From contig DUOW01000014.1 in NCBI GenBank assembly GCA_012838635.1, positions 1 to 36,554 on the forward strand: 36,554 nt of DNA. Direction: 5' to 3'. Position 1 is the stretch's first letter; each line of letters begins with the position of its first letter. Below are positions 1 to 36,554 of this stretch, in pieces. Source of the DNA: Acholeplasma sp. Its GTDB lineage: Bacteria > Bacillota_I > Bacilli_A > ML615J-28 > CAG-698. The translations under genes were made by a program, and so were the position numbers. Under the pieces are notes generated by a model. It did not search any database. It saw only the letters and a list, made by a program, of their open reading frames with translations, and had not been told where the DNA came from.

Positions 1-109
1 CTTTGAAAAATATAAATGCCGCAACAAGTGATCCGATAATCAGGGAAGCAAAAATAGCTGTTGCTATTAGTTTAATTTTGCGGGCTTTTGTAAATGTATT
101 TTTAGCCAT
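1..109 (-). CDS. N-terminus of an unidentified membrane-anchored protein (partial)
   Basis: This is a minus-strand reading frame that starts at ATG 109-107 and runs off the left edge, so only about 36 codons are visible. On the minus strand AGAGG lies 7 bases before the ATG, which supports the start. The peptide opens with MAKNTFTKARKIK, a basic stretch, followed by a hydrophobic segment of about 20 residues (residues 14-35) that reads as a signal anchor or first membrane helix. No family can be recognised from this fragment. It is divergent from the GNAT-like gene at 238, with 128 bases between the two starts. Confidence 0.55.
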   Translation of the reverse strand, partial: MAKNTFTKARKIKLIATAIFASLIIGSLVAAFIFFK

Positions 110-188
110 AATTAACCTCTTAAATATGTAATATTTTATCACAATAGTCTTAAAATTAACATAAAAATTATTTGGATTTTGATATTTC

Positions 189-217
189 TTTACAAATCAA
201 CCAAAAAATAGTATAAT
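189..217 (+). promoter_or_regulatory. Sigma-A promoter of the GNAT-like gene
   Basis: The -35 box TTTACA (189-194) and the -10 box TATAAT (212-217) are separated by 17 bases. The expected start point is near 224, just before the ribosome site GAGGTG (227-232) and the ATG at 238. Confidence 0.75.
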
Positions 218-237
218 AATCCTACTGAGGTGATTTT

Positions 238-1374
238 ATGTATTATATTAAAGAAGTGATCACAAGAAAAGAAATGAAGAAGTTTGTGAAGTTTCCTAAT
301 AAATTATATAAAGATTGTAAGTATTTTGTTCCCGATATTTATGAATCAGAAATAACTTTCTTTAATCCGAAGAAGAACTCATCATATGATTATAGTGAAT
401 CAAAACAATGGTTATGCTATGATGAAGAAGGAGAAGTTGTTGGGAGAGTTGCAGCTATTTTAAGTCATGCTTATAATAAAAAAACTGGTGGCAAGTTTAT
501 GCGTTATTCTCATCTTGATATGATTGATGATGTAGAGGTAACTAGACTTTTATTGATTGAAGTTGCAAAATATGCAAAAGAAAAAGGAATGGATACTTTA
601 ATGGGACCTTTAGGTTTTACCGATATGGATAAACAAGGGTTATTAGTAGAAGGATATAATGAAATGAGTAATTTCATTACTTTATATCATTATCCTTATT
701 ACAAAGAGCATTTAGAAAAGTTAGGATTTGAAAAAGACCAAGATTGGGTTGAATATCAAATCAAAGTTCCTGATGAAATTCCTCATCTTTTAAATAGGAT
801 GGCCGATCGTGCTGTAGCTCGTTATGATTTAAAGATTAAGAAGTTCAAAAAGAAAAAGGAAGTATATCCTTATATTGAAGCAGCATTCCATGTTGTTAAT
901 GATGCTTTTGCACCTTTATATGGAACTGTTCCTTTAACTCAAAAACAAATTGATGAACTTGTAGCTTCATATATCCCTTTACTAAACTTAGATTTTGTTT
1001 ATTTAGTAGCTGACAGAGAAGATGAAGTAATAGGCGTTGGCTTAATGGTTCCTTCCTTAAATAAATCATTACAAGCAACTAAAGGTAAATTACTTCCATT
1101 TGGCTTTTTAAAAGTTTTACGTGATTTAAAGACAGTAGAAGTATTAGATTTACTTTTTATTGCTGTTGAGCCTAAATATCAAACTACTGGTGTTGCTGCC
1201 TTAATTATAAGAGAGGCAATTATAGAGGCGATTAAGTATGGTGCTAAGTTTGCAGAAACAGGACCAGAATTAGAAACTAATATTAAAGTTCAATCACAAT
1301 GGAAATATTTTCAAACAAGACAACATAGAAGACGTAGAACTTATAAGATAAATGTTGATGAGTTTTTAAAATAA
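238..1374 (+). CDS. GNAT-fold protein of unknown substrate
   Basis: A 378-residue cytosolic protein with no signal peptide or membrane segment. The C-terminal part reads like an acyl-CoA N-acyltransferase core: QTTGVA at about 315-320 fits the Q/R-x-x-G-x-G/A acetyl-CoA loop, and it is followed by the helix and strand pattern of the GNAT fold. The middle contains MGPLGFTDMDKQGLLVEG and YHYPYY, which I recall as hallmarks of a widespread uncharacterised GNAT family of 370-380 residues in Bacteroidota and Bacillota. The length fits a whole member of that family. GAGGTG sits 5 bases before the ATG. The gene has its own promoter and appears monocistronic, since the L21 promoter begins four bases after its stop. 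The substrate is unknown, and the GNAT assignment is moderately secure. Confidence 0.75.
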   Translation: MYYIKEVITRKEMKKFVKFPNKLYKDCKYFVPDIYESEITFFNPKKNSSYDYSESKQWLCYDEEGEVVGRVAAILSHAYNKKTGGKFMRYSHLDMIDDVEVTRLLLIEVAKYAKEKGMDTLMGPLGFTDMDKQGLLVEGYNEMSNFITLYHYPYYKEHLEKLGFEKDQDWVEYQIKVPDEIPHLLNRMADRAVARYDLKIKKFKKKKEVYPYIEAAFHVVNDAFAPLYGTVPLTQKQIDELVASYIPLLNLDFVYLVADREDEVIGVGLMVPSLNKSLQATKGKLLPFGFLKVLRDLKTVEVLDLLFIAVEPKYQTTGVAALIIREAIIEAIKYGAKFAETGPELETNIKVQSQWKYFQTRQHRRRRTYKINVDEFLK

Positions 1375-1377
1375 ACC

Positions 1378-1406
1378 TTGCAATTTTAAGTAAATAGTGC
1401 TATAAT
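1378..1406 (+). promoter_or_regulatory. Sigma-A promoter of the rplU operon
   Basis: TTGCAA (1378-1383) and a perfect TATAAT (1401-1406) are 17 bases apart. Transcription would start near 1413, giving an untranslated leader of about 97 bases before rplU. Confidence 0.85.
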
Positions 1407-1410
1407 ATAT

Positions 1411-1500
1411 GAGTTGTGGAAGTACACCGCACTTAGTTAAGGTTATAAATGATTAATTAATCTACCTTACAAGGCGTGTCTTAAAAATATTAAAAAGGAG
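1411..1500 (+). ncRNA. Structured 5' leader of rplU, probable L21 leader
   Basis: The untranslated leader between the promoter and rplU can fold. TAAGGT (1438-1443) pairs with ACCTTA (1464-1469), enclosing the palindrome GATTAATTAATC (1451-1462). Outside that, ACACcGC (1424-1430) pairs with GCGTGT (1474-1479) with one bulged C. Position, size and nested-stem layout match the L21 leader family, a cis-regulatory element found before rplU in Bacillota and thought to mediate feedback by the ribosomal protein. The assignment rests on position and hand folding, not on a covariance-model search. Confidence 0.65.
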
Positions 1501-1509
1501 GTAGTACTT

Positions 1510-1809
1510 ATGTATGCAATTATTGAAACTGGTGGTAAACAATATAAAGTATCAGAAAATGATGTAATTCATATCGAGAAAATCGAAGGCGAAGAAGGTG
1601 CTGAAGTTACTTTTGATAAAGTTTTACTTGTAAATGGTAAAGTTGGTAGTCCTTATGTAAAGGGTGCTAAAGTTACTGGTAAGATTTTAAAACAAGGTCG
1701 TGGTAAAAAGATCATTGTTTATAAATACAAAGCAAAGAAAAACTATCACAAGAAACAAGGACATCGTCAAGCATATACTAGAGTTCAAATTTTATCTTTA
1801 GGTGCTTAA
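1510..1809 (+). CDS. rplU: Large-subunit ribosomal protein bL21
   Basis: A 99-residue protein, close to the usual length. It begins [18 protein letters not shown], the characteristic bL21 start, and has the basic RNA-binding C-terminal part with [15 protein letters not shown]. bL21 binds 23S rRNA in the 50S subunit. AGGAGG lies 9 bases before the ATG. The stop touches the ATG of prp with no spacer, and the order rplU-prp-rpmA is the conserved Bacillota order. Regulation is probably through the structured leader upstream. Confidence 0.97.
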
Positions 1810-2127
1810 ATGATTACAGTTAATTTTACTTATGAAAATAAGGAGATAAAAAAAGTGTCGGTTTCTGGTCATTCATTATATGATAAGAAAGGTTCTGACA
1901 TTGTTTGTAGTTCAGTATCAACTGCTGTTATTTACAGTATTAGATTACTGGAGGCAAATGAAGAAAAGTTTACTTTCCGTGAAGATGAAAAAAAGCCAGA
2001 AATAACTATTTTAGTAAACGAGGTAAGCTCTTTAACTAATTTAGTTTTGGATAATCTAAAAATATTATTAGAAGACTTAAGTAAAGATTATCCGAACAAT
2101 ATCAAAATAAAGGAGGCATTAAAATGA
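1810..2127 (+). CDS. prp: Ribosomal-processing cysteine protease Prp
   Basis: A 105-residue protein of the YsxB/Prp family, encoded between rplU and rpmA as in other Bacillota. The catalytic pair is visible: His21 in SGHS and Cys33 in DIVCSSVS. Prp removes the short N-terminal extension of bL27, an essential maturation step characterised in Staphylococcus aureus. The partner is present next door, because the L27 encoded here starts with exactly such an extension. The gene begins immediately after the rplU stop and shares ATGA with rpmA (2124-2127), so translation of the three is likely coupled. Confidence 0.93.
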
Positions 2128-2405
2128 TTAAATTAAACATTCAATTCTTTGCATCTAAAAAAGCTGGTGGATCTACGAAAAACGGTCGTGATTCGATTGC
2201 GAAAAGACTAGGTGCTAAAATGGGTGATGGTGAATATGCAAACGCTGGATCAATTATTTATCGCCAAAGGGGAACAAAGATTCATCCGGGAGAAAATGTT
2301 GGTCGTGGAGGCGATGATACATTATTCGCTTTAATTAATGGATATGTAAAGTTTGAGCGTAAAGGACGTAATAAAAAGCAAGTTTCTGTTTACGCTACGA
2401 AATAA
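2124..2405 (+). CDS. rpmA: Large-subunit ribosomal protein bL27 with cleavable N-terminal extension
   Basis: A 93-residue bL27. The first nine residues, MIKLNIQFF, precede [15 protein letters not shown], the conserved mature N-terminus that reaches the peptidyl-transferase centre. The LxxQFF/A junction is the Prp cleavage motif known from Firmicutes and Fusobacteria, so the mature protein should begin at Ala10. The rest, including the [15 protein letters not shown] segment, is canonical. The gene overlaps prp by four bases and is followed at once by a strong hairpin with a T-run. Confidence 0.97.
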
Positions 2406-2434
2406 TGCACTTATAATATAAAGTGCATTTTTTT
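2406..2434 (+). terminator. Intrinsic terminator after rpmA
   Basis: A perfect 7-bp stem, TGCACTT (2406-2412) with AAGTGCA (2421-2427), has an 8-base loop and is followed by seven T. It starts one base after the rpmA stop and ends 22 bases before obg, with no recognisable promoter in between. It may therefore be a partial terminator that sets the ratio of obg to the ribosomal genes. Confidence 0.85.
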
Positions 2435-2456
2435 AACGTTTAAGTAGGTGATATAA

Positions 2457-3719
2457 ATGTTTATTGATCAAGTAAATATCGAAGTAGTAGCCGGTAATGG
2501 TGGTAAAGGAATGGTTGCTTTTAGAAGAGAAAAGTATGTCCCTAAAGGTGGACCAGCTGGAGGTAATGGGGGCAAAGGTGGCTCTGTTATCTTTAAAGGC
2601 TCATTAAATAAAACTACGCTTTTAGACTTAAAATACAACAAAATTATCAAAGCTGATTCAGGTGAAAATGGTAAAGCTAAAAACATGTTTGGAAAAGATG
2701 CTTTAGATGTTATTATTGAAGTACCACTTGGCACAGTAGTTAGAGATCTTGATAGTGGTGAAGTAATCGCCGATATTACTAAAGATGGAGAAGAAGTTGT
2801 GATTGCAAGAGGTGGAAAAGGTGGAAGAGGCAATGCTGCTTTTGCTACAAGCAAAAATCCTGCTCCCAAAATCTTTGAAGCAGGTGAGCGTGGTGAAACG
2901 AAAAACATTAGTTTAGAGTTAAAACTCTTAGCTGATGCTGGTTTAGTGGGACTGCCTAATGTAGGTAAAAGTACGATTATTTCTGCTTTATCAAAAGCAA
3001 AACCAAAAATAGCCGATTATCCTTTTACTACTTTAATTCCAAATCTTGGTGCAGTAGAAGCTAAAGATGGAAGAAGCTTTGTTTTAGCTGATCTTCCAGG
3101 TTTAATTGAAGGGGCTAGTTTAGGTGCTGGTTTAGGACATGATTTCTTAAGACATATTGAAAGATGTAGAATCATCGTTTATGTTTTAGATATTGATCCT
3201 GTAGATAAATCTGATCCTTATGAGAACTATCTTTTAATTAAAAAAGAACTAGCTGAGTATAACCCTGAGCTAGTTACAAGACCTGAAGTTATTGTAGCTA
3301 ATAAGATGGACTTACCTAATGCAAACAAGAATTTACTTAAATTAAAGATGAAATTAGGTGATGATGTTATTGGTATTTCTGCTTACCAAGCTGAAAACTT
3401 AGATGCTTTAGTTTATAGGATTGCCGATTTACTAGAAACAGTTCCGTTAAAAGAAGAAGCTTTAGAAGAAGTTGTAGAATACACATTCAAGAAAGAAGAA
3501 AAACCTTATACAATTACTTTATTAGAAGATGGAACTTATGAAGTAAAAGGTAAACTTATCGAAAAATATATTGATTCCACAAATTTCCAAAACGATGAAA
3601 GTGTTAAAGTACTTGCTTATCGCCTAAAAAGATTAGGAATAGAAGATGAGCTTAAGAAATTAGGTGCTACACCTGAAGATACTATAATTATCGAAGGTAT
3701 TGTTTTCGAATTACAATAG
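2457..3719 (+). CDS. obg: Ribosome-assembly GTPase Obg
   Basis: A 420-residue protein with the three Obg modules in order. The glycine-rich Obg fold covers about residues 1-157 (many GG and GGKGG segments). The GTPase domain has G1 GLPNVGKST at 165-173, G3 DLPG, G4 NKMD and G5 SAY. A C-terminal OCT domain covers about 340-420. Obg binds the 50S subunit during late assembly and links growth to GTP and ppGpp levels. The rplU-prp-rpmA-obg neighbourhood is conserved. The start has AGGTGA 5 bases upstream. Length and motifs are normal. Confidence 0.97.
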   Translation: MFIDQVNIEVVAGNGGKGMVAFRREKYVPKGGPAGGNGGKGGSVIFKGSLNKTTLLDLKYNKIIKADSGENGKAKNMFGKDALDVIIEVPLGTVVRDLDSGEVIADITKDGEEVVIARGGKGGRGNAAFATSKNPAPKIFEAGERGETKNISLELKLLADAGLVGLPNVGKSTIISALSKAKPKIADYPFTTLIPNLGAVEAKDGRSFVLADLPGLIEGASLGAGLGHDFLRHIERCRIIVYVLDIDPVDKSDPYENYLLIKKELAEYNPELVTRPEVIVANKMDLPNANKNLLKLKMKLGDDVIGISAYQAENLDALVYRIADLLETVPLKEEALEEVVEYTFKKEEKPYTITLLEDGTYEVKGKLIEKYIDSTNFQNDESVKVLAYRLKRLGIEDELKKLGATPEDTIIIEGIVFELQ

Positions 3720-3811
3720 ATGTTACTAATTTTTAAGAACATACTTTTAAAATAAAAAAAGATTATTAGACTATGGGACTTAATGGATTTTAAGCCTAAA
3801 AGGAGGGAAAA

Positions 3812-4435
3812 TTGAAAAAATATAATCTTGCAGATTTTGTCTTTGGAGCAATTTTATTTGCTATTATTATTGTGATGGCTTTTGTACCATCTGTTGGGTA
3901 TATCCCAATCATACCTGGTGTTGCTTATGCAACATTACTACACATTCCTGTTTTAATTGGAGCAATCTTCTTAGGGTGGAAATGGGGTCTTGCTTTAGGC
4001 TTAACATTTGGCATTACGTCAATGATTCAAGCATTCATTATGATGGGACCTGCTAATGCACCATTTACTAACCCTTTGGTAAGTGTATTACCAAGAGCTT
4101 TAATTGGCGTTTTAGCACCATTTATGTTTAAGTGGTTAACTAAAGCTTTTAAAGGCAAAGAAAAGTTAGCTTTATTCTTCACTTTTGGGATAATGACAAT
4201 TATTCATACAGTTATTGTATTAACACTACTTTATGGAGCAATTAAAACTGGTCATTATTATACGAAAACAGTGGAGGATATTGCGGAGACGACATTTGAA
4301 AAAGTGGTATTTGCCATTTTATCTTGGAACTCACTAGCAGAAATTGTATTAGCAGTCTTAATTGGACCAGCTATTTACATACCTTTAGATCAGGTAAGGA
4401 AAAAAAGAAATCACAAGTTAGAAGAACAAGTATAA
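3812..4435 (+). CDS. ECF transporter S component, substrate unknown
   Basis: A 207-residue integral membrane protein with about six hydrophobic segments. The pattern HIPVLIGAIFLG, then GLxxGLTFGITSMIQAF, then NPLVSVLPRALIG is typical of substrate-binding S components of energy-coupling-factor vitamin transporters, especially the PanT-like or COG4684-type group. The start is TTG at 3812, chosen because AGGAGG (3801-3806) is well placed and no in-frame ATG lies nearby. It follows obg after 92 bases and ends at a bidirectional terminator. The energising EcfA/EcfA'/EcfT subunits are not in the window. The substrate cannot be read from the sequence, and I recognised no riboswitch upstream. Confidence 0.8.
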   Translation: MKKYNLADFVFGAILFAIIIVMAFVPSVGYIPIIPGVAYATLLHIPVLIGAIFLGWKWGLALGLTFGITSMIQAFIMMGPANAPFTNPLVSVLPRALIGVLAPFMFKWLTKAFKGKEKLALFFTFGIMTIIHTVIVLTLLYGAIKTGHYYTKTVEDIAETTFEKVVFAILSWNSLAEIVLAVLIGPAIYIPLDQVRKKRNHKLEEQV

Positions 4436-4437
4436 AT

Positions 4438-4465
4438 AAAAAAGGGTTTAATAAAACCCTTTTTT
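4438..4465. terminator. Bidirectional terminator between the ECF gene and tetR
   Basis: GGGTTT (4444-4449) pairs with AAACCC (4454-4459) around an AATA loop, with six A before and six T after the stem. It therefore works as an A-stem-T terminator on either strand for the two convergent genes. Confidence 0.9.
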
Positions 4466-5051
4466 AATTTGTGAATACTTTCACAAGTTCTTTTACATAA
4501 GCATCACGATACTCTTTGAATTTAGTGTTAGTTATAGTCGGAATAATTGATTGTAAGAATAGGGGAACACCGAAAGAAGAGAATAAGATGATGTATTTAG
4601 CAGCTAGTTTTGTTTTGTCTGTTATTCCAGTTATTTCAGAAAATACTTTGAAAAGTTGTTCTAAAAAGACACTGTCAGTTAAAAATTCATCAACTAAAAT
4701 GTTTGCGGAACTATCATTTCCTTCACTACCAATAAAAGAAAGATAGATAACACCAATATATTCTTCAGAAAAAGCGTAGATTAAATCAACTGCTTTGTTA
4801 ATCATTAATTCTGTATCGTCATTTTTTCCTTTATTATTACTCGGGATTAAAAGTTCATGGTAGATTTTAGTTTTAAGTTCAGTAATTACTTCTTTTAAAA
4901 CGATATTTACTAAGTTTTCTTTACTACCGAAGTAGTAGTTTACTGCTGCTACATTGATATTTGAAGCATCGGTAATGTCTTTAATCGTTAGATTAGTCCT
5001 TGTTTTTAATAATTCTTTTGTTGTTTGAATAATACTTTCTTTTCTTGTCAT
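4464..5051 (-). CDS. TetR-family transcriptional repressor
   Basis: A 195-residue protein. The N-terminal 50 residues form a TetR helix-turn-helix, seen as LTIKDITDASNINVAAVNYYFGSKENLV with the family hallmark YYFGSKE. The remainder is a helical ligand-binding domain with no assignable ligand. The ATG (complement of 5049-5051) has AGGAGG 5 bases upstream. It is divergent from an MMPL exporter-lipoprotein pair, the usual arrangement for a repressor controlling an efflux operon. An almost perfect 21-bp palindrome (5070-5090) covers its likely transcription start, implying autorepression. Target and inducer are unknown. Confidence 0.9.
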   Translation of the reverse strand: MTRKESIIQTTKELLKTRTNLTIKDITDASNINVAAVNYYFGSKENLVNIVLKEVITELKTKIYHELLIPSNNKGKNDDTELMINKAVDLIYAFSEEYIGVIYLSFIGSEGNDSSANILVDEFLTDSVFLEQLFKVFSEITGITDKTKLAAKYIILFSSFGVPLFLQSIIPTITNTKFKEYRDAYVKELVKVFTN

Positions 5052-5180: not shown

Positions 5181-7274
5181 ATGGATAAGATTTTAAGAAA
5201 ACTAGTGTCAAAAAAGGGGATGACGATTACCGCTATCGTCTTTGTAGTTTTACTTATTGCTTCAATCGGTTTTGCTTTCATGACAAAGGTAAATTACAAT
5301 ATGTCTTTATACCTTCCAGAAGACTCAAAGACAAAACAATCAATGGAGGTTTTTGAGGAAGAGTTTGGACTAACAACAATGCTTCAAGTTATGATTTCGG
5401 ATACTAATAATGAAGAAGTAGCTGAGATTGTTGATGAAGTAAAGCAAATTGAAGGAGTAAAAAGTGTTAACTGGTTAGGTGATGTAGCGGATTTAAAACA
5501 ACCAGTTGATGCTGTTAGTAATCCTTTAGTCAATCGTTTTTATAAAGATGGTAATTACTTACTAACAATTGAGATGAATGAAGATGAGTATAGTTTAGTT
5601 ACCGATCAAGCAATTGATAAAACGCAAGACTATTTAAAAACGAAAGCTGTTACGGTTAATTATCGTGGACCAGCAATGTCGGCCAAAACTACAAGAGATT
5701 TAACGGCGCGAGAAACTTTAAATATTATGGCAGTTGTAGTTCCTGTTGCTTTAATCATTCTAATCATTGGTTCTACATCATGGATTGAACCAGTTGTAGT
5801 TTTAATAAGTTTATTAACTGCGATTGTAATTAATTTAGGTGTTAATGGTTTTATGCCTAATATTTCTTTTATTACAATGGCAATGGCATCAGCATTGCAG
5901 CTTGCAGTGAGCCTCGACTACTCGCTCTTCTTTGTTCATAGGTACTATGAAAAAAGGGAAGCGGGGATGGATAAGAGGAAAGCTGCTGTAAGTTCAATGA
6001 AAGATGCTTTAGGTTCAGTAACCGCATCGTGCTTAACAACTGTATTTGGCTTCTTAGCTTTAGTCTTTATGCGTTATCGCATCGGTGCTGATATTGGAAT
6101 TAACCTAGCAAAAGCTGTCTTTATTAGTTATTTAGTTGCCTTGTTTATGATGCCAATGTTACTTATTGTTTTTGATAAGTGGCTTTTAAAGAGTAAACAT
6201 AAAAGCTTTGTTCCTAACTTTAAGAAAATTGGGGGAAGGATTCATAAAGGAAGATTCCCGATTGTAGCAATCTTTTTAGTAGTTATGGGAATAGCTGTTG
6301 TTTTCCAATCTAAAACAAAATTCTTTTATGGAGATCAGGGAGTATTAGAAGAAGATGATCCTGTTGTTGTTCAAGATGTAGCAATTACCAATGAGTTTGG
6401 ATATTTCCAACCAGTTGTTATTTTATATGATAAAGATGCAAAAACTGAGGCTGTAGCAGTAGCTGAAGTTTTACAAGATCATGAATTAATAGATGGTATT
6501 GATAGTATCGTAACATCAATTCCTAAAACTATTCCTAGTGATATGATACCTGCTGAGTATTTAGATAGGTTTGTTGGGGATAAGTATGCGAGAATGATTG
6601 TTTCGATTAAAGTAATGGATGAAACAGAAGATATGTATCAAGTCGCAGAAGATATTGAGCGCATCTGTAAAGAAAACTTTGGTGATAATTACTATACTTT
6701 AGGTTATGCATCATCGATTACGGAGATTAAAGATACGGTAACTGCTGATGGAATTATTGTTCAGATTATCTCTGTTGTTACAATAGCCTTAATTGTAGGT
6801 TTAATCTTTAAGTCAATTTCGATTCCAATTGTTTTAGTTTTAGTTATTCAAACAGCAATTTGGATTAACTTTGCAATTCCTTACTTTACAGACAAGACGC
6901 TAACATATATCGGTTATCTAGTTGTATCAAGCTTGCAACTAGGGGCAACGATTGACTATGCCGTACTACTCACAAGTAGGTATATGGAATTTAGAGAGCA
7001 AAAGATGGAGAAAAAACAAGCACTATCTTTGGCAATGCAAAAGTCAGTTAATACAATTTTAGTTTCATGTTTTGTGTTAGCTGCGGCAGGGTTTGTAGAG
7101 ATGCTTATGAGTAATGTACCTAGTGTATCAGAAATGGGACTTCTAATTGGTCGTGGTGTATTACTATCAGGCTTATTAGTTTTGGTTGCTTTACCAGCAC
7201 TATTAGTACTTTTAGATAAACCTATTCAAATGCTAACATTTAATAAAAAGAAGAACAAGGAGGAAAATATATGA
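5181..7274 (+). CDS. MMPL/RND-superfamily exporter
   Basis: A 697-residue membrane protein with the duplicated MMPL layout. An N-terminal helix (about 11-34) is followed by an extracytoplasmic domain and a helix cluster (about 180-335). A second half repeats this with helices at about 360-378 and 525-690. The equivalent helix-4 motifs, LAVSLDYSLFFVHRY and LGATIDYAVLLTSRY, carry the conserved Asp-Tyr used for proton coupling in this superfamily. AGGAGG lies 7 bases before the ATG. It overlaps the lipoprotein gene by four bases (ATGA) and is divergent from tetR, so it is probably a repressed efflux or lipid-export system. The substrate is unknown. Confidence 0.9.
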   Translation: MDKILRKLVSKKGMTITAIVFVVLLIASIGFAFMTKVNYNMSLYLPEDSKTKQSMEVFEEEFGLTTMLQVMISDTNNEEVAEIVDEVKQIEGVKSVNWLGDVADLKQPVDAVSNPLVNRFYKDGNYLLTIEMNEDEYSLVTDQAIDKTQDYLKTKAVTVNYRGPAMSAKTTRDLTARETLNIMAVVVPVALIILIIGSTSWIEPVVVLISLLTAIVINLGVNGFMPNISFITMAMASALQLAVSLDYSLFFVHRYYEKREAGMDKRKAAVSSMKDALGSVTASCLTTVFGFLALVFMRYRIGADIGINLAKAVFISYLVALFMMPMLLIVFDKWLLKSKHKSFVPNFKKIGGRIHKGRFPIVAIFLVVMGIAVVFQSKTKFFYGDQGVLEEDDPVVVQDVAITNEFGYFQPVVILYDKDAKTEAVAVAEVLQDHELIDGIDSIVTSIPKTIPSDMIPAEYLDRFVGDKYARMIVSIKVMDETEDMYQVAEDIERICKENFGDNYYTLGYASSITEIKDTVTADGIIVQIISVVTIALIVGLIFKSISIPIVLVLVIQTAIWINFAIPYFTDKTLTYIGYLVVSSLQLGATIDYAVLLTSRYMEFREQKMEKKQALSLAMQKSVNTILVSCFVLAAAGFVEMLMSNVPSVSEMGLLIGRGVLLSGLLVLVALPALLVLLDKPIQMLTFNKKKNKEENI

Positions 7275-9112
7275 AAAAAAGATTTGTAATTATCTTATTA
7301 CTGGTTTTATCTATTTTCATGCTAACAAGTTGTAAGAAAGATGATGAGCCTGTTGTTGTAAAAAAGGATCCGTTTATTCCTTCACAAACTAAAGTAATTG
7401 CAGAAAACATGCAAGAAGAAACAGTTTTTGCTGTTTTAGATGCAGAAGGAAATATTGTTTCTTTAAAAGTAGTAGCAGTATTAGATAATGTTGAAGCTGA
7501 TAATTACTATACAATTAATGCTCATACTTTAGGAACTAATGCTAACTTATCAGAAAACAATCCTTTAGTAAAAGAAGGCAACTTAATTAAAATACCAGTT
7601 AAAAATGCTAAAAATAAATATTATTATGAGTTAGAGTTAGATAAAACTAAGTATGAATTACCATATAAATTTAAGTTTACCTATTATTTAGGTGAAGAAG
7701 AAAAAACTTTAAATGAAATTCTTGGGAAAGCTGGAACGTTTAAAATTAAATTAGAGATTACTCCTAATGAAGCAGTTGCAAAAGAAATAAGAGAACAGTT
7801 TGTAGCACAAGTACAAGTACCGATTGATATTGATAAAGCAGAAGTAATTGATGATGATGGAGCAATGACATCTGTTCTAGCAGGTTCAGTTAGAACGATA
7901 GCTTATTTTGGGATGCCAGGATCAAAGTCTAGTTATGAGTTAACGATTAAAACTGATTCATTTATGAGAATCAATGCTACAATTAGCCTTCAAGCTATCG
8001 ATATGAGTTCAATTGATTTGGAAAATATATTTGCTAATCTAAATATGTTTGGTGAAGAATTATCACCAGAAGCGTTAAAGGCAATGGTAATCTTGATGCT
8101 TGGTGGTCTAGCAGAAGGGATGTCGGAATTTTCATTTATCCATTTATTAAATACGCAAATTAAAGGAGCATTACAAGGTGTACTAGAAAATCCAATGGAC
8201 TTTTCTGGATTAGACCAATTAGGAGTAGCAATTCAAAATATTGCCCCACCAGTTGCATCAATCGCTGATGAAGAGTTAAGAGGTCAAATTCTTGCTTCAT
8301 ACTTAGCAGTAACAGTAGCAGCTAGTGAAGCTTTTGCACCTGAAATTATGACATCTATTCAAGAATGTATTGTTCAAGTAGGAACAGATGTTTCAAGAAT
8401 GGAAAGTTATGATCCAAAATATCAAAAGATTGTTGCTACTAAGACTGCTTTAGAAGGCTTAATTCCTAAAATTGAAGCTTTAGATATTAGTATCTTAGAA
8501 GATGTTGCTTTAATTAAAAACAATATTGCTTCTATGGGAAGTGATTATGCTTTATATGATAATGATGTAAAAGAAGTTTTTGATAATTTTCATAAGTTAT
8601 TAAATAATATTGAAACACTAGGAACTAAAATTGGTGTTTTAATCCAAAAGTTAGCTGAATATCAAGCAATGATGGTGGCTAATCAAGATGCTTTTGGCTC
8701 AGATCCAGCAGTTATTGCTCAAGTTCAAACTATTATTAATACAATTTCTAATGAGCAAGGTACAGGCTTAATTAATCAACTTACAGGTATTGCATCACAA
8801 ATTGAAAGTTCAATGCCTACAACTGATGATTTAACTGCTTTAGGTGCTTTATTTAATAAAAACCCGGAAACTGGTCTAACACCTTTAGATATGCCGTTAT
8901 TTGCAATTTTAGAATTTTCCAAAGAAGTAAATTCCGTTAATGTAGATACTCCTATGAGTGCAATGACGTTACTTGATGGCTTATCAATTGCAGCACAAGC
9001 AAAACAAGCTTTTGCTTCATCTGCAAGTGAAGAAGAAACAATTTTTTATTCCTTTGCCTCTCTTGACGTTTTACAAGTAAAATCATTGCAATTTGTTATT
9101 ACCCAAAAGTAA
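7271..9112 (+). CDS. Large lipoprotein partner of the MMPL exporter
   Basis: A 613-residue protein with a lipoprotein signal: MKKR, a hydrophobic core and the lipobox LTSC, with Cys21 as the predicted lipidated residue, followed by charged KKDDE. After a beta-rich region (about 30-260) the rest is largely helical, with repeated Ala-, Ile- and Leu-rich stretches suggesting long helical bundles or coiled coils. I recognise no enzyme motif. It is translationally coupled to the MMPL gene (ATGA overlap), which points to an outside-facing accessory of that exporter, perhaps playing the part YhgE-like proteins play elsewhere. That role is inference from context. Confidence 0.85.
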   Translation: MKKRFVIILLLVLSIFMLTSCKKDDEPVVVKKDPFIPSQTKVIAENMQEETVFAVLDAEGNIVSLKVVAVLDNVEADNYYTINAHTLGTNANLSENNPLVKEGNLIKIPVKNAKNKYYYELELDKTKYELPYKFKFTYYLGEEEKTLNEILGKAGTFKIKLEITPNEAVAKEIREQFVAQVQVPIDIDKAEVIDDDGAMTSVLAGSVRTIAYFGMPGSKSSYELTIKTDSFMRINATISLQAIDMSSIDLENIFANLNMFGEELSPEALKAMVILMLGGLAEGMSEFSFIHLLNTQIKGALQGVLENPMDFSGLDQLGVAIQNIAPPVASIADEELRGQILASYLAVTVAASEAFAPEIMTSIQECIVQVGTDVSRMESYDPKYQKIVATKTALEGLIPKIEALDISILEDVALIKNNIASMGSDYALYDNDVKEVFDNFHKLLNNIETLGTKIGVLIQKLAEYQAMMVANQDAFGSDPAVIAQVQTIINTISNEQGTGLINQLTGIASQIESSMPTTDDLTALGALFNKNPETGLTPLDMPLFAILEFSKEVNSVNVDTPMSAMTLLDGLSIAAQAKQAFASSASEEETIFYSFASLDVLQVKSLQFVITQK

Positions 9113-16070: not shown

Positions 16071-16619
16071 ATGAAGAAAAGACAAAAGTTTATTTTAGTT
16101 GCAATCTTAATGCTTTTAGTATCTGCATCAATTGGTGGTGCTTATGCTTACTGGGCAGGAACAGTTAATGCTCCTACACCAGAAGACGAGACTATTGCTA
16201 TTAACATTGGTGAAGGTAAAGAAGTTGCTACTGTTTTAAACGTAAGTGGAGACAATGGGGCTCAAAACAAAGTTTTAGTTCCAGCTGGACAAATTGATAA
16301 CAGTGTTGAAGTACCTGAAGGATCAACGCTTGTAGAAGAAGTTACTGTCGTTTATACAGCTACATGGACTGGAGTTACTGGTGCTACTGGTACTTTAAAT
16401 GTTGCTATGGGCTCTGTTACTATTGATGGATCTGAAACTACTCATGCTGATTTAGTAAATGTTACTATTACAAGTGAAAATACTGCTATTACTGGTGGTA
16501 CAGATGTAACTGTTACTGTAAAAGTTACTTTAACAGAACCAGCTAACAAAACTATTTATGATGCTATTAAAGGGAAAGCAATTTCTATTCCATTAACATT
16601 TAAAGTTGTTCCTAACTAA
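16071..16619 (+). CDS. Secreted TasA/SipW-type surface protein, copy 2
   Basis: A 182-residue intact member of the array. A signal sequence (MKKRQK plus a hydrophobic core) leads into GGAYAYWAGTVNAP, with likely cleavage after AYA. The mature part is Thr-, Val- and Gly-rich and looks all-beta. Shared blocks are INIGEG, KVLVPAGQIDNSV, the YTATW strand, VTIDG, HADLVNV and LTEPANKTIYDAIKGKAI. The layout resembles SipW-dependent TasA/CalY-type matrix proteins, with a signal ending in AYAY[WF] and then a VxPGxxxxN-like turn and beta strands. The homology is suggested by pattern only. It has its own strong promoter and terminator. Function is probably extracellular fibre or matrix (inference). Confidence 0.8.
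   Translation: MKKRQKFILVAILMLLVSASIGGAYAYWAGTVNAPTPEDETIAINIGEGKEVATVLNVSGDNGAQNKVLVPAGQIDNSVEVPEGSTLVEEVTVVYTATWTGVTGATGTLNVAMGSVTIDGSETTHADLVNVTITSENTAITGGTDVTVTVKVTLTEPANKTIYDAIKGKAISIPLTFKVVPN
16536..16577 (+). repeat. 42-base segment identical to 15817-15858
   Basis: This is the copy-2 partner of the identical block in copy 1, encoding EPANKTIYDAIKGK. Confidence 0.85.
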
Positions 16620-16649
16620 GATTGAAATTAAAAGTAAGAGGAAATAAAG

Positions 16650-16674
16650 GTAGACCTATATGGTCTACATTTTT
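16650..16674 (+). terminator. Terminator after copy 2
   Basis: GTAGACC (16650-16656) pairs with GGTCTAC (16662-16668) around a 5-base loop, followed by a T-rich tract. The terminator after copy 4 has the same GTAGAC/GTCTAC core. Confidence 0.85.
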
Positions 16675-16709
16675 TATTTTCAAACCTTAAAAATACCTTA
16701 AAAAAACTC

Positions 16710-16738
16710 TTGCTTTTTATAATAGGTTTTGGTATAAC
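16710..16738 (+). promoter_or_regulatory. Promoter of surface-protein copies 3 and 4
   Basis: TTGCTT (16710-16715) and TATAAC (16733-16738) are 17 bases apart, and GGAGAGG follows before the ATG at 16768. Confidence 0.75.
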
Positions 16739-16767
16739 TAGACAAGAATAAAAGAAGGAGAGGTAAG

Positions 16768-17388
16768 ATGAAAAATAGAAAGAAATTTTTATTACTAGCT
16801 ATTTTAGTGTTTCTAATTTCTGCATCATTTAGTGGAGCTTATGCTTATTGGGCTGGTACTGTTAATGCACCTGATCAAAAAACTAATACTATTGCTATAA
16901 ACATTGGTGAGGGTGGAGTTATTGATACTGAGATTACTTTAAATCCTTTATTTGGGGGAACTAATGGTGGGAATAAGGTATTAGTGCCTACTGGACAAAT
17001 TCCTAATAGTGTTGCCGCACCTGCTGGTAAAGAACTTGTAGATAAAGTAGAAATTACTTACGGAGTTGAATGGAAACCAGTATCTGCATCTGCTAATATT
17101 ACGGGAACTGAAGGTACTATTTCTGTAGCTTTGGATGCTGTTACAATTGGTGGAGATACTGCACATGCTGATTTAGTTAAGGTAGAATATAAAAAACCTG
17201 GAATATCAGCACCTTATGAGTCTATTAATGGAGCTCCTGCAACATATATCCAACATGCTCATGTGCCAGCGCCATATACTTATATTAGAGTTACTTTAGA
17301 AGAACCTGTAGATAAAGCAACATATGAAGCTATCATTGGTAAAGAAATTGTTATTAAATTGAAATTCAGTGTAACGGTTAATCCGTAA
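16768..17388 (+). CDS. Secreted TasA/SipW-type surface protein, copy 3
   Basis: A 206-residue intact paralogue. MKNRKKF and a hydrophobic core lead to SGAYAYWAGTVNAP, nearly identical to copies 1 and 2. The mature part keeps INIGEGG, KVLVPTGQIPNSV, VEITYGVEW with the conserved Trp, VTIGGDTAHADLVKV and LEEPVDKATYEAIIGKEI. It has an extra Pro- and Tyr-rich insertion (about residues 148-172) not present in copy 2. A GGAGAGG ribosome site precedes the ATG. No terminator separates it from copy 4, which follows after 29 bases, so the two are probably one transcript. Confidence 0.8.
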   Translation: MKNRKKFLLLAILVFLISASFSGAYAYWAGTVNAPDQKTNTIAINIGEGGVIDTEITLNPLFGGTNGGNKVLVPTGQIPNSVAAPAGKELVDKVEITYGVEWKPVSASANITGTEGTISVALDAVTIGGDTAHADLVKVEYKKPGISAPYESINGAPATYIQHAHVPAPYTYIRVTLEEPVDKATYEAIIGKEIVIKLKFSVTVNP

Positions 17389-17417
17389 AAAATAAAATGC
17401 TCGGAATCGAGGTAAAT

Positions 17418-18005
17418 ATGGGGAAAAAGAAGAAAATAATTATTATAGTAATTTTAGTATTTGTAATGTCATTTACTATTGATGGAGCTTATGCCTATTG
17501 GGCAGGAACAATTAATGCCCCTGCAGAAGAAAGCGATACTGTTAATATCAACATTGGTGAGGCTAAAGCAGTTAACACCGTTTTAACATTAAATGGGACT
17601 ACAACTTCAGGACAAGTTTTAGTTCCTGTTGGTCAAGTTGCCAATAGTAATGCGCCTTCTGGATCTACTCCGGTTGAACAAATTACTTTTCAGTATACAG
17701 CTAATTGGAATGAAGTCGCAGGTAGTGCTTTAGGTGCTACTGGATCTTTTACTGTAACTTTAGGGCAAATTACAATCAATGGTTCAACAGCTAATGCTGG
17801 TTTAATTCATGTTTTTATAGGATAAACAGCAACTGGTGCTCCTTTAACAACTTCATATACAATGCCTAACCCGATTAGCATTGCAACTCCATATGTATTT
17901 TATATCACGTTTACGATGGATTGTCCTGGTACAACAACCGTTTATAATGAAGTAATTAATAAACCAATCGCAATTCCACTAACATTTAGTGTTGCTGTTA
18001 ATTAA
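17418..18005 (+). pseudogene. Surface-protein array copy 4, interrupted by an in-frame TAA
   Basis: The start is placed at ATG 17418 because GAGGT (17409-17413) precedes it and MGKKKK aligns with the signal starts of the paralogues. The ATG at 17397 would add seven unrelated residues. The frame carries GAYAYWAGTINAP, INIGEA, QVLVPVGQVANS and FQYTANW, then meets TAA at 17823-17825. The same frame then stays open to 18005 with recognisable family sequence (TTTVYNEVINKPIAIPLTF). The stop aligns roughly with a Lys of copy 3 (AAA to TAA possible). Translation would give a 135-residue protein lacking the last two or three strands. Confidence 0.75.
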
Positions 18006-32792: not shown

Positions 32793-34082
32793 ATGCCATT
32801 AGGAATGACAAAAGCAACTCATATTTCTGAGCACAAAGGGCATAAGGAACTTACGAAACATAAGGGAATCTTGGAGTATCTAAATCCTAAATATGTTTAT
32901 TTTCCTGCAAATAGACCTGATTTAGATTATGAGATTTGCGTTAAAGTAGGAGATGAAGTTAAAATTGGAGATGTCTTAACGATTTCAAAAGCATACTTTC
33001 CAGTTATTACTCATTCTTCTGTTAGTGGTAAGGTTACTGCAGTTGATAAGAAGGTATGGCACCCATCAGGGAAGAAAATATCTGCAATTGAAATTGAAAA
33101 CAACTTCAAAGAAGAAGTAACTTACTTAAAAGAGCAACCTTTAACAAAAGAAGGTATTATTGAAACAATTCGCTTAGCCGGGATTGTAGGGATGGGAGGA
33201 GCTGGATTTCCAACTCATGTGAAATACACTCACCCTAAATACCAAACTGACACTTTGATTGTAAATGCAGTTGAGTGTGAGCCTTATTTAACATGCGACT
33301 GTGTTTCAATTAAACATTATGCGAAAGAGTTAATCCAAGGGATTAAGTATGCGATGATTGCAAATGATGCTAAGAAAGCTGTCATAGCAGTTAAAGTATG
33401 CCATCAAGATGTAATTGCCATTTTAGAAGAACTACTAAAGGATGAAGAAAATATTTCCTTACATCTTTTAACAGATGTATATCCTGCAGGTTGGGAGAAG
33501 TATATTGTAGAGAAAGTGCAAGGAAAAACTTATAAGAGTTTACCATGTGAGACTGGTGCTGTTGTAAGTAATGCAGGTACTTTGATTGCAATTAACGATG
33601 CTGTTTCAAAAAGACTTCCTCTAACTAAGCGTGTAATTACTGTTAGTGGTGATGGTGTTAAAAATCCCCAAAATGTTTTAGTAAAAGTAGGAACTTTAGC
33701 ATCAGAGATCATTGACAAAACTGGTGGTTATGTAGATGATCTTGGGGCAGCAAATTTAATTGCTGGTGGTCCAATGACAGGAAATGGTCAATTCTTTGAT
33801 AGTTTTATGGTTGAAAAGACTACTACAGGCATTTTAGTATTTAAAGAAATCGCTGGTAAAGAAGAAGCTTGTTTAGGTTGTGGTAAATGTGTAGACAATT
33901 GCCCTGTTAAATTATCACCTATTTTAATAAAACTTGCTTATGATGATAAAGATAAAGAAAAGATGGTTAAACTACATGCTGATATGTGTATGGAATGTGG
34001 TTTATGTTCTTATATTTGTCCTTCAAGAATAGAGCTTACGGAAGCTGTTGGTAAAGCTAAGAAAGTTGTAAGAGGTAAATAA
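32793..34082 (+). CDS. rnfC: Rnf complex subunit C
   Basis: A 429-residue peripheral subunit of the Rnf complex, which couples ferredoxin oxidation and NAD+ reduction to ion pumping. A glycine-rich NADH/FMN loop, GIVGMGGAGFPTH, begins at about 130, followed by the SLBB region. Two [4Fe-4S] motifs are present: Cys360-x2-Cys363-x2-Cys366-x3-Cys370 and Cys399-x2-Cys402-x2-Cys405-x3-Cys409. AGGAGG (32780-32785) is strong and well spaced to the ATG. It is followed after one base by rnfD. The CDG order fits the acetogen-type cluster order (C-D-G-E-A-B), so E, A and B probably lie beyond the window. Confidence 0.96.
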   Translation: MPLGMTKATHISEHKGHKELTKHKGILEYLNPKYVYFPANRPDLDYEICVKVGDEVKIGDVLTISKAYFPVITHSSVSGKVTAVDKKVWHPSGKKISAIEIENNFKEEVTYLKEQPLTKEGIIETIRLAGIVGMGGAGFPTHVKYTHPKYQTDTLIVNAVECEPYLTCDCVSIKHYAKELIQGIKYAMIANDAKKAVIAVKVCHQDVIAILEELLKDEENISLHLLTDVYPAGWEKYIVEKVQGKTYKSLPCETGAVVSNAGTLIAINDAVSKRLPLTKRVITVSGDGVKNPQNVLVKVGTLASEIIDKTGGYVDDLGAANLIAGGPMTGNGQFFDSFMVEKTTTGILVFKEIAGKEEACLGCGKCVDNCPVKLSPILIKLAYDDKDKEKMVKLHADMCMECGLCSYICPSRIELTEAVGKAKKVVRGK

Positions 34083-34083
34083 G

Positions 34084-35298
34084 ATGGTTCAAGAAAGAAG
34101 ATTTTCTGTAAATAAAGCGCCAATGATTAGAAGAGCAGATTCTGATTCAAATACAAAATCAATTATGCTTCATTTTATGATTGCATTGATTCCAATTATT
34201 ATCTTTGGTTTTGTGAAGAACGGACTTATGCCTTTTATTAATACAGTCGAAGATAAAAACTTTGCAGCTGTTATTGATATGTTAAGACCATTAATTTTAG
34301 TAATTGTTGGTTGTTTAACTAGTTTTCTTGCGGAGCTTGTTTATTTTGTTTTAGTAAAGAAAAGTAAAACTCCTGTTAATGATGCGTTAAATTCTTATTC
34401 GCTTATTCCAGGATTATTGATAGCTTTAATTGTTCCTTTATATACACCTGTTTGGGTATTAATTCTAGGATGTTTATTTGGAACAGTTATTGGTAAATTA
34501 GTATTTGGTGGGTTTAGTAAAAATATCTTTAACCCAGCATTAATTGGTTATTTATTTATTCAAACAGCATTTAGTGGTGTAGTAGCAGCTCATGGTGGTA
34601 ATTTAAACCCAACTGAAGTTGGAACAATTGTAAGTGGTGCTACACCAATGGTTGCATTTAAAGCTGATATGTTTGGCTCATATGATGTTTTAGTAAAACC
34701 TTATGGAACAATTTTAGATTTCTTTTTAGGTAATGTTCCTGGGGCTTTAGGTGAAACAAGTGCTGTTCTTTGTTTAGTTGCATTTTTATATCTAGCAATT
34801 AAAAAAGTAATTGACTGGAAGATTCCTGTTATTTATGTAGGTGGAGTATTTGTCTTAACATACATTCTAGGAGCATTTAATGGTCATGCAGCTGATTTAT
34901 GGTATCCCGCATTAGGTATCTTTAGTGGTGGTTTAATGTTTGGTGCTGTCTTTATGGCAACTGAACCAGTAACTGCACCTAAGAGCCCAAATGGTAGAAT
35001 ATTATATGCTATTAGTTTAGCTGTTTTAACTGTTCTTTTTAGATATAAATCTAATTTCCCTGAAGGTGTTGCCTCATCAATTCTAGTAATGAATATGTTA
35101 GTATTCATCTATGATAATATTTGTGCGCCTTTAAGAGTTGAACCAAAGAAGTGGAAAGTTGCTTTAGTTTACTTAGGCTTTGCTTTAGTGTTTTTAGCAT
35201 TGTTTGCTTTTGTGTTATTTACGACAGGTAAATTTGCTCCCGTTGAAGCAGCAATGATTAATAATCCATTATTTTTAGGTGTTGGAGGTCTTAAATGA
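34084..35298 (+). CDS. rnfD: Rnf complex subunit D
   Basis: A 404-residue membrane protein with about ten helices. The flavinylation motif SGATPMVAF is present, with Thr187 as the predicted covalent FMN site attached by the ApbE transferase. FGGFSKNIFNPALIGYLF and ATEPVTAPKSPNGR are family hallmarks. RnfD forms the membrane electron path together with RnfG. It is somewhat longer than the usual 320-350 residues. The stop overlaps the rnfG start (ATGA). No apbE gene lies in the window. Confidence 0.96.
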   Translation: MVQERRFSVNKAPMIRRADSDSNTKSIMLHFMIALIPIIIFGFVKNGLMPFINTVEDKNFAAVIDMLRPLILVIVGCLTSFLAELVYFVLVKKSKTPVNDALNSYSLIPGLLIALIVPLYTPVWVLILGCLFGTVIGKLVFGGFSKNIFNPALIGYLFIQTAFSGVVAAHGGNLNPTEVGTIVSGATPMVAFKADMFGSYDVLVKPYGTILDFFLGNVPGALGETSAVLCLVAFLYLAIKKVIDWKIPVIYVGGVFVLTYILGAFNGHAADLWYPALGIFSGGLMFGAVFMATEPVTAPKSPNGRILYAISLAVLTVLFRYKSNFPEGVASSILVMNMLVFIYDNICAPLRVEPKKWKVALVYLGFALVFLALFAFVLFTTGKFAPVEAAMINNPLFLGVGGLK

Positions 35299-36554
35299 GT
35301 CAAAATAATAAGAAAAGTGTTTTAAAAAATGTTTTACATTATTCAATCTTTTTACTTGTTTTAGGACTTTTAGTTGGTGGAATTTTAGCAGCATTAAATG
35401 CTTGGACTTATCCAATTATTAAAGAACGTAAAGAAAAAGAAGTTAGAGAAAGGTTAGAAGCTAATTTTACATTTACTAGTTTTACTTCTGAAGGTTTATT
35501 AGAAAAATATCCTTTAGCTGGCAATAATGCGACTTTAGAAAATATTTATCTTATTGGTCAAGAAGAAGGTCAATATAATGAAGTAGTTTATGAAGTTAAG
35601 GCTAAAGGTTATGGTGGCGATGTTGTATCGCTTGTTGGGATTTATGGGACTGGTACAATTAGTAAGTTAGTTGTAATTGATGTTTCTTCTGAAACGCCAG
35701 GATTTGGATCTAAAGCTGCAACTCATGATTTTGATGTTGCTGGTAGAAGTACTGATAACTTTGTTTTTGAAGTTGGAAATAAAGAAAACTATATTGCTGG
35801 TTCAACTGTAACTTCTAAGGCTGTTGATGCTGGTGTAACTTTAGCTGTTGCTCATTACAATCAATATAAAGACGATTTAGGTTTAGCAGCAGTTGAAACA
35901 AAAACCTTCAAATTTGAAAGTTGTGAACAAGACTTAACTGCCCTACCTGATTTAAGATATAAATATGTTTTATCATATGGAGATGATGCATTAAATGTTT
36001 TAGTTGATGGTGATTATAAAGTTGTTTCCGTTACTGAAGCTGGTTATGATGATAAACATCAAGATATTGAAACATTAATTGCTACTAAACAATTAAAGAC
36101 TTATATTGCTTCTTCTACAAAATCAGGTAATGTTTATACAGTCGAAGCATATAGTAATGGTTTCGAAGTAGCAAAAGGGCCTGTTAAATCAACTTATACA
36201 ATTGAATCAGGAAAAGGTATTACAGCAGTTGTAATTGATGATAGTAAAGAAAGTTACCCTGTTTCTAATGATGTAGCTGCAGAACTTGCTTCAGAAATCT
36301 TAGAAAAACAAGAAGCTATTGATACTGTGGCAGTTATTGCTGGTGCTACTGTAACATCAAATGCAATTTTAGATACTGCAAAACTAGTTACAAAATATAT
36401 GGTAGAAGTATTAAATATTCAACCAGTTACTCCAGTTGAGAAAGTTTTCAAAGTTGAATCAAGATCACAAAAGATGTCAGCTTTACCAGAACTTGAGTTT
36501 AACTATGAAGTATCTTACGGGGAAGAAATCTTAAATATTACTGTTGATAGTAAC
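35295..36554 (+). CDS. rnfG: Rnf complex subunit G with repeated FMN-binding domains (partial)
   Basis: The frame is open from ATG 35295 to the window end, 420 codons without a stop. One N-terminal helix (about 17-37) anchors an extracytoplasmic part. FMN-binding domain 1 is canonical, with SSETPGFG and AGSTVTSKAV, where Thr171 is the likely flavin-bearing residue. A second, divergent domain has AGATVTSNAI with Thr352. Each domain is followed by a related block: FKFES, ALPDL, SYGDDALNVLVD after the first, and FKVES, ALPEL, SYGEEILNITVD after the second. A third unit may therefore begin at the window edge. Ordinary RnfG has about 190-210 residues and a single domain. It overlaps rnfD by four bases. 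Confidence 0.93.
   Translation, partial: MSQNNKKSVLKNVLHYSIFLLVLGLLVGGILAALNAWTYPIIKERKEKEVRERLEANFTFTSFTSEGLLEKYPLAGNNATLENIYLIGQEEGQYNEVVYEVKAKGYGGDVVSLVGIYGTGTISKLVVIDVSSETPGFGSKAATHDFDVAGRSTDNFVFEVGNKENYIAGSTVTSKAVDAGVTLAVAHYNQYKDDLGLAAVETKTFKFESCEQDLTALPDLRYKYVLSYGDDALNVLVDGDYKVVSVTEAGYDDKHQDIETLIATKQLKTYIASSTKSGNVYTVEAYSNGFEVAKGPVKSTYTIESGKGITAVVIDDSKESYPVSNDVAAELASEILEKQEAIDTVAVIAGATVTSNAILDTAKLVTKYMVEVLNIQPVTPVEKVFKVESRSQKMSALPELEFNYEVSYGEEILNITVDSN

Follow-up and report, generated by a model that had tools for sequence, protein, structure and literature searches.

Does the open frame that runs off the end of this stretch of DNA encode an RnfG carrying a chain of flavin units and, if so, what might such a chain do in an Rnf complex? 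A sequence-only reading of the window (the whole 36,554-nucleotide stretch that was analysed) had proposed that the G subunit extends outward as a series of covalent flavins, passing electrons to an external acceptor or a surface partner. The genome (G000) has 1.04 Mb and is 98% complete; the window, its contig C51, ends within rnfG.

The rnfG gene and its FMN_bind units

The features of the window that bear on this question, all on the plus strand, are as follows.

32793..34082, +: rnfC (TIGR01945, 342 bits, cut-off 246)
34084..35298, +: rnfD, 404 aa, with a helix and tail beyond the canonical end at about residue 350 (PF03116, E 1.2e-73)
35295..36554, +: rnfG, first 420 codons, open at the window end and continuing on contig C50 of the same genome
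35319..35375, +: predicted N-terminal membrane helix of RnfG, residues 9-27 (hydropathy)
35400..35897, +: RnfG unit 1, the canonical RnfG core with FMN_bind, residues 36-201 (PF04205, profile)
35796..35816, +: flavinylation-type motif AGSTVTS of unit 1, residues 168-174 (direct reading)
35898..36422, +: RnfG unit 2, an extra FMN_bind with an N-terminal extension, residues 202-376 (PF04205, profile, fold)
36339..36359, +: flavinylation-type motif AGATVTS of unit 2, residues 349-355 (direct reading)
36438..36554, +: start of RnfG unit 3, residues 382-420, whose end with SGASVTS lies on contig C50 (profile; complete in the sister species)

What had been read from the letters is confirmed, apart from one detail. 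The frame has no stop in its 420 codons before the window end, a single N-terminal helix is predicted, and both motifs lie where they had been placed. The two proposed FMN_bind domains correspond to two stretches matched by PF04205 (whole-protein E 6e-13, 49.7 bits, cut-off 22), which a genome-wide search located at 35607-35849 (39 bits) and 36174-36383 (28.4 bits), both above the cut-off. Against the profile of the extra units, the last 40 windowed residues score E 2e-4, so that unit 3 begins in the window, as the suggested start of a further repeat would have it. The blocks FKxES, ALPxL and SYGxxxLNxxVD do repeat, but they had been misplaced: they are part of the N-terminal half of unit 2 and of unit 3, rather than tails of units 1 and 2.

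The assignment to RnfG is consistent with the position of the gene between rnfD and rnfE and with an N-terminal helix followed by an FMN_bind core. TIGR01947 (rnfG) aligns over positions 2-186 of 187 with E-values of 1.3e-20 and 2.6e-22, the scores (74.3 and 79.8 bits) lying below a cut-off of 102 that is a naming threshold. By sequence, the best PDB matches are the RnfG 9eri_G (E 7.7e-8), CbFMN4 (8p2b) and the RnfG 7zc6_G.

The complete gene is seen in a sister species of the same genus (L033, also L093), which is on record as a member of the Acholeplasmataceae. There an uninterrupted rnfG encodes a protein of 549 aa in which FMN_bind is matched three times (E 2.3e-19); downstream lie rnfE, rnfA, rnfB (105 aa) and the beginning of a lipoprotein gene. 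In this independent assembly the frame is 87% identical to the windowed RnfG and stands in the same operon. In the window's own genome, contig C50 opens with the last 47 residues of RnfG, which are 91% identical to sister residues 503-549 and include the motif SGASVTS, and continues with rnfE, rnfA, rnfB and two lipoprotein genes. The placement of the gene in an rnf operon is thus borne out on both sides, and all six subunits, RnfA, B, C, D, E and G, are encoded in the order rnfCDGEAB (window with C50; sister). Since contig C51 spans sister residues 3-416, leaving about 86 codons unseen between C51 and C50, we infer, and do not observe, exactly three units in the window's species.

An AlphaFold2 model of sister RnfG residues 200-549, covering units 2 and 3, has a mean pLDDT of 90.4. 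Searched with Foldseek, it matches CbFMN4 domain 1 (8p2b; probability 1.00, TM 0.78 and 0.76 of the target) and RnfG (7zc6_G; probability 1.00, TM 0.40 of the target), every E-value being at least 0.001 and most of the listed matches being chance ones (probability < 0.9, TM ∼0.1). The model, a confident one, shows the FMN_bind fold. An early stop with no further domain, and no FMN_bind fold in residues 200-420, had been named beforehand as evidence against the proposed chain; the sister gene instead carries a third domain, and the fold is present past residue 200. The extracytosolic protein has more than one FMN_bind domain, two in the window and three in the sister, as expected of a multi-flavinylated protein.

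The flavin-site motifs are AGST in unit 1, AGAT (window species) or SGAT (sister) in unit 2, and SGAS in unit 3, so each of the three units retains the Thr/Ser position. The AGST of unit 1 is unusual; it is the same in both species and also occurs in the core RnfG of a relative (G004). The flavin transferase gene whose presence the sequence-only reading had made a point to check, apbE, is encoded in the same genome (PF02424, E 2.1e-70; C45 14264-15193), on a contig that also encodes PFOR. These motifs would allow covalent FMN on each RnfG unit. No PF04205 protein other than RnfG was found in a profile search of the genome.

By eye, we also noted that apbE abuts sufC-, sufD-, sufS- and sufB-like genes (L120 4651-5862, minus strand, with 31-4651; C45 of G000), as if flavin attachment and Fe-S assembly were co-expressed.

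Attachment of the extra units among relatives

Within the same family, the two extra units are found in several positions. They extend RnfG in G000 and G001; they are fused as a pair after the C-terminal helix of RnfD in G009, G017, G008 and G004, and apparently also in G024 and G002, where the frames are split; and they form a free two-unit protein between rnfD and rnfG in G010, G011 and G012. A single unit is fused to RnfD in G003 and, with the degraded motif ATATQTS, in G007, G020 and G026, while G013 and G022 lack the extra units, as does the more distant Rnf of G006 and G023. A different family of the same taxonomic order has RnfG with one extra unit (G028) and a free pair (G029). Examples of RnfD with two fused units, 734-762 aa long, are L035 2348-4636, L036 1302-3512, L037 913-3120 and L040 2312-4516; the pair is a free gene at L045 1411-2439, L046 2032-3126 and L124 2185-3249. 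Elsewhere in the class, too, RnfGs of two and three units are seen (L051, L143). In the open-licence literature searched, we found no description of an RnfD-FMN_bind fusion, which is weak evidence of absence.

A tree of the RnfD core, RnfE and RnfA places the window genus, in which RnfG bears the pair, next to G009, of the sister genus, in which the pair is on the RnfD C-terminus (support 99/97), and the six architectures require at least six changes on this tree. In a tree of the units themselves, units 2 and 3 group together (100/99), with the deeper order unsettled. This unit tree does not serve to trace units 2 and 3 to an RnfD-fused pair; on it, relocation would look the same as fresh duplication in the genus or homogenisation of the copies. 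We also considered whether the C-terminal helix of the window RnfD, to which solved RnfDs align only up to residue 349, is the vestige of a lost RnfD-FMN fusion; this is ruled out, given that RnfDs of G013, G022 and G048 have the helix and no fused unit.

The frequent presence of the pair, together with its shifting attachment, suggests that it serves the Rnf complex as a whole. Its loss in G013 and G022, and the degraded motif in G007, G020 and G026, indicate that the extra units are not indispensable.

Among distant members of the class, proteins at the RnfG position were seen with 669 and 577 aa (about three units) and with 467 aa (one detected unit); these are L048 2674-4683, L143 585-2315 and L140 3608-5008, respectively.

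RnfB, the following lipoproteins and the cell surface

The RnfB of the window genus is a protein of 105 aa, comprising a hydrophobic N-terminus and a single-cluster PF04060 domain. It is not exceptional in this respect: RnfB has 97-119 aa, and no Fer4 motifs or ferredoxin-like polycluster domain, in 31 of the 35 rnf operons read, the long form (267-277 aa) being confined among them to genus g19 (L131-L134). Two examples, both with PF04060, are listed here.

L034 8433-8750, −: short rnfB
L033 4230-4547: short rnfB

The RnfB C-terminal domain holds two to seven clusters according to a review (PMC12174285), and solved RnfBs are described as carrying three to eight clusters in all (PMC11889175). 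The RnfB of this gene set lacks the C-terminal polycluster domain expected of a ferredoxin:NAD+ Rnf and so, though the gene set is Rnf, its use of ferredoxin cannot be assumed. A single-cluster RnfB was not described in the open-licence literature searched, again weak evidence of absence. The genome itself encodes PFOR, an NADH-type [FeFe] hydrogenase and a 61-aa frame with a Fer4 match that is probably a small ferredoxin; reduced ferredoxin is therefore likely to be available in the cell.

In many relatives, rnfB is followed by a gene for a lipoprotein with two similar domains of ∼150 aa that has no Pfam name.

L034 6773-8320 and 5609-6655, −: lipoproteins following rnfB
L095 8144-9124 and L096 8384-9397: the same in relatives

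A profile of this lipoprotein matches PDB 2kzx (E 3e-6) over a stretch containing AISGATI. The letters at the SGAT place of 2kzx are AGVT- or AGVS-like, and the Thr/Ser is lost in the 348-aa second copy. The profile comparison with the FMN units gave no match, and the AlphaFold model is poor (pLDDT 40). We take the lipoprotein as a lead: it may be a distant, degenerate relative of FMN_bind and a candidate partner of RnfG. The lipoproteins 3' of rnfB have no Pfam FMN_bind match, and in this they differ from the separate FMN_bind lipoprotein PplA of the Ndh2/EetA/PplA system.

No penicillin-binding transpeptidase domain was found in the 98%-complete genome, which fits a wall-less cell, and there is probably no cell wall to span. 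Together with the record of the sister species as a member of the Acholeplasmataceae, this weakens the likeness to wall-spanning electron transfer in Gram-positive bacteria, and the sequence-only interpretation is supported in part.

Two other loci of the window encode secreted or lipid-anchored proteins. At 16071-17825 lie three small adjacent genes, including those of two similar secreted proteins with the starts MKKRQKFILVAIL and MKNRKKFLLLAIL, together with AYAYWAGTVNAP. At 5181-9112, the gene of an MMPL/HAE3-type RND transporter (697 aa) overlaps that of a 613-aa lipoprotein without an NCBIfam match.

A possible side branch, and known systems

In the solved complexes, electrons pass from RnfB to the [2Fe-2S] centre of RnfA/E, then to the FMN of RnfG, the FMN and riboflavin of RnfD, RnfC and finally NAD+ (PMC11889175). 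We think it probable that the locus encodes a canonical Rnf pump to which covalent flavins add a side branch, RnfG being lengthened by a tandem FMN_bind pair to three ApbE-type sites. Starting from the gene, its domains, the operon, apbE and the fold, we infer the flavinylation, the direction of flow and the acceptor as follows. Unit 1 would keep its canonical role as the link by which electrons of the ion-pumping ferredoxin:NAD+ route reach the covalent FMN of RnfD from the RnfA/E [2Fe-2S] centre. On the extracytosolic face, units 2 and 3 would draw electrons from unit 1 or from RnfD and might pass them to an outside acceptor, possibly by way of the tandem-domain lipoprotein encoded 3' of rnfB. 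In favour of the side branch are the three FMN_bind domains of the sister RnfG together with the corresponding 3' end on contig C50, the full rnf set, apbE, the fold of units 2 and 3, the Thr/Ser kept in three units, and the retention of two extra units across the family, whether on RnfG, on RnfD or free; a side exit has also been proposed in print for multi-flavinylated RnfG (PMC8238504). Against it are the lost or degraded units of some relatives, the absence of another PF04205 protein from the genome, the unusual AGST of unit 1, and the fact that no acceptor was found in the genome.

The last of these points, like the absence of another PF04205 protein, would also suit a complex in which the extra units do bear flavin yet serve as a buffer for electrons, or a local store of flavin, within the ferredoxin:NAD+ cycle, with no outside exit; the operon is otherwise that of an ordinary rnf. 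A canonical Rnf runs without such a buffer, however, and the conserved lipoprotein 3' of rnfB, with its distant likeness to an SGAT-bearing protein, offers a candidate partner, making this explanation an unlikely one in our judgement. Distinctly unlikely, to our minds, is that the extra units have lost flavinylation, wholly or in part, and have a structural or assembly role, for instance as an outer cap joining RnfG, RnfD and the lipoprotein. Such a role would accord with the motif ATATQTS in three relatives and with an attachment point that shifts between subunits, but the Thr/Ser position is intact in the window genus, as in most relatives with two units, and apbE is kept. The buffer role and the structural role both count for us as live alternatives. 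As for the long rnfG being an assembly artefact that fuses separate genes, the window does end inside rnfG, some 86 codons short of C50; yet the separately assembled sister has the same operon with an unbroken 549-aa frame, and RnfGs of two or three units exist elsewhere in the class, so that we give this almost no credence.

A further departure from the side-branch reading, which we hold only tentatively and would not favour, is that the relocatable module of two flavins (borne by RnfG or RnfD, or free), the one-cluster RnfB and the dedicated tandem-domain lipoprotein make this Rnf mainly or partly an outward electron exit of a wall-less fermenter, and not a plain ferredoxin:NAD+ pump.

The locus provides a clear case, with a complete sister gene, of the little-tested class of multi-flavinylated Rnf complexes, and indicates that flavin pairs of one kind can be borne by one subunit or another of the same complex. 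The module is defined, and the idea of a side exit is thereby open to test; the question also arises by what route ferredoxin electrons would enter an Rnf whose RnfB has a single cluster.

Multi-flavinylated RnfG as a kind has been known since 2021, when it was described, and a second outward electron path proposed, by Méheust et al. (eLife; PMC8238504); what specialists might expect less is how the pair changes its place of attachment and how small RnfB is. The present RnfG resembles those of that article in lying in an rnf cluster and having more than one FMN_bind domain. It differs from those in the article's main text in that the host is an apparently wall-less relative of the Acholeplasmataceae, relatives bear the pair on RnfD or free, and RnfB is single-cluster. 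The canonical RnfGs of Clostridium tetanomorphum and Acetobacterium woodii (PDB 7zc6, 9eri) share the N-terminal helix and an FMN_bind core homologous to unit 1, but they have one FMN domain where here there are two further units. The secreted multi-FMN proteins SaFMN3 and CbFMN4 (PMC10339131, PDB 8p2b) likewise have tandem covalent-FMN domains, and units 2 and 3 resemble CbFMN4 domain 1 in sequence and fold; those were studied as separate soluble proteins, whereas the present units form part of an Rnf subunit and bear a long extension at the N-terminus. Finally, the Rnf of Methanosarcina acetivorans with its multiheme cytochrome MmcA (PMC12174285) is alike in the proposed sense of an extracytosolic side exit, the difference being that MmcA is a separate multiheme cytochrome, while here the flavin units lie within RnfG.
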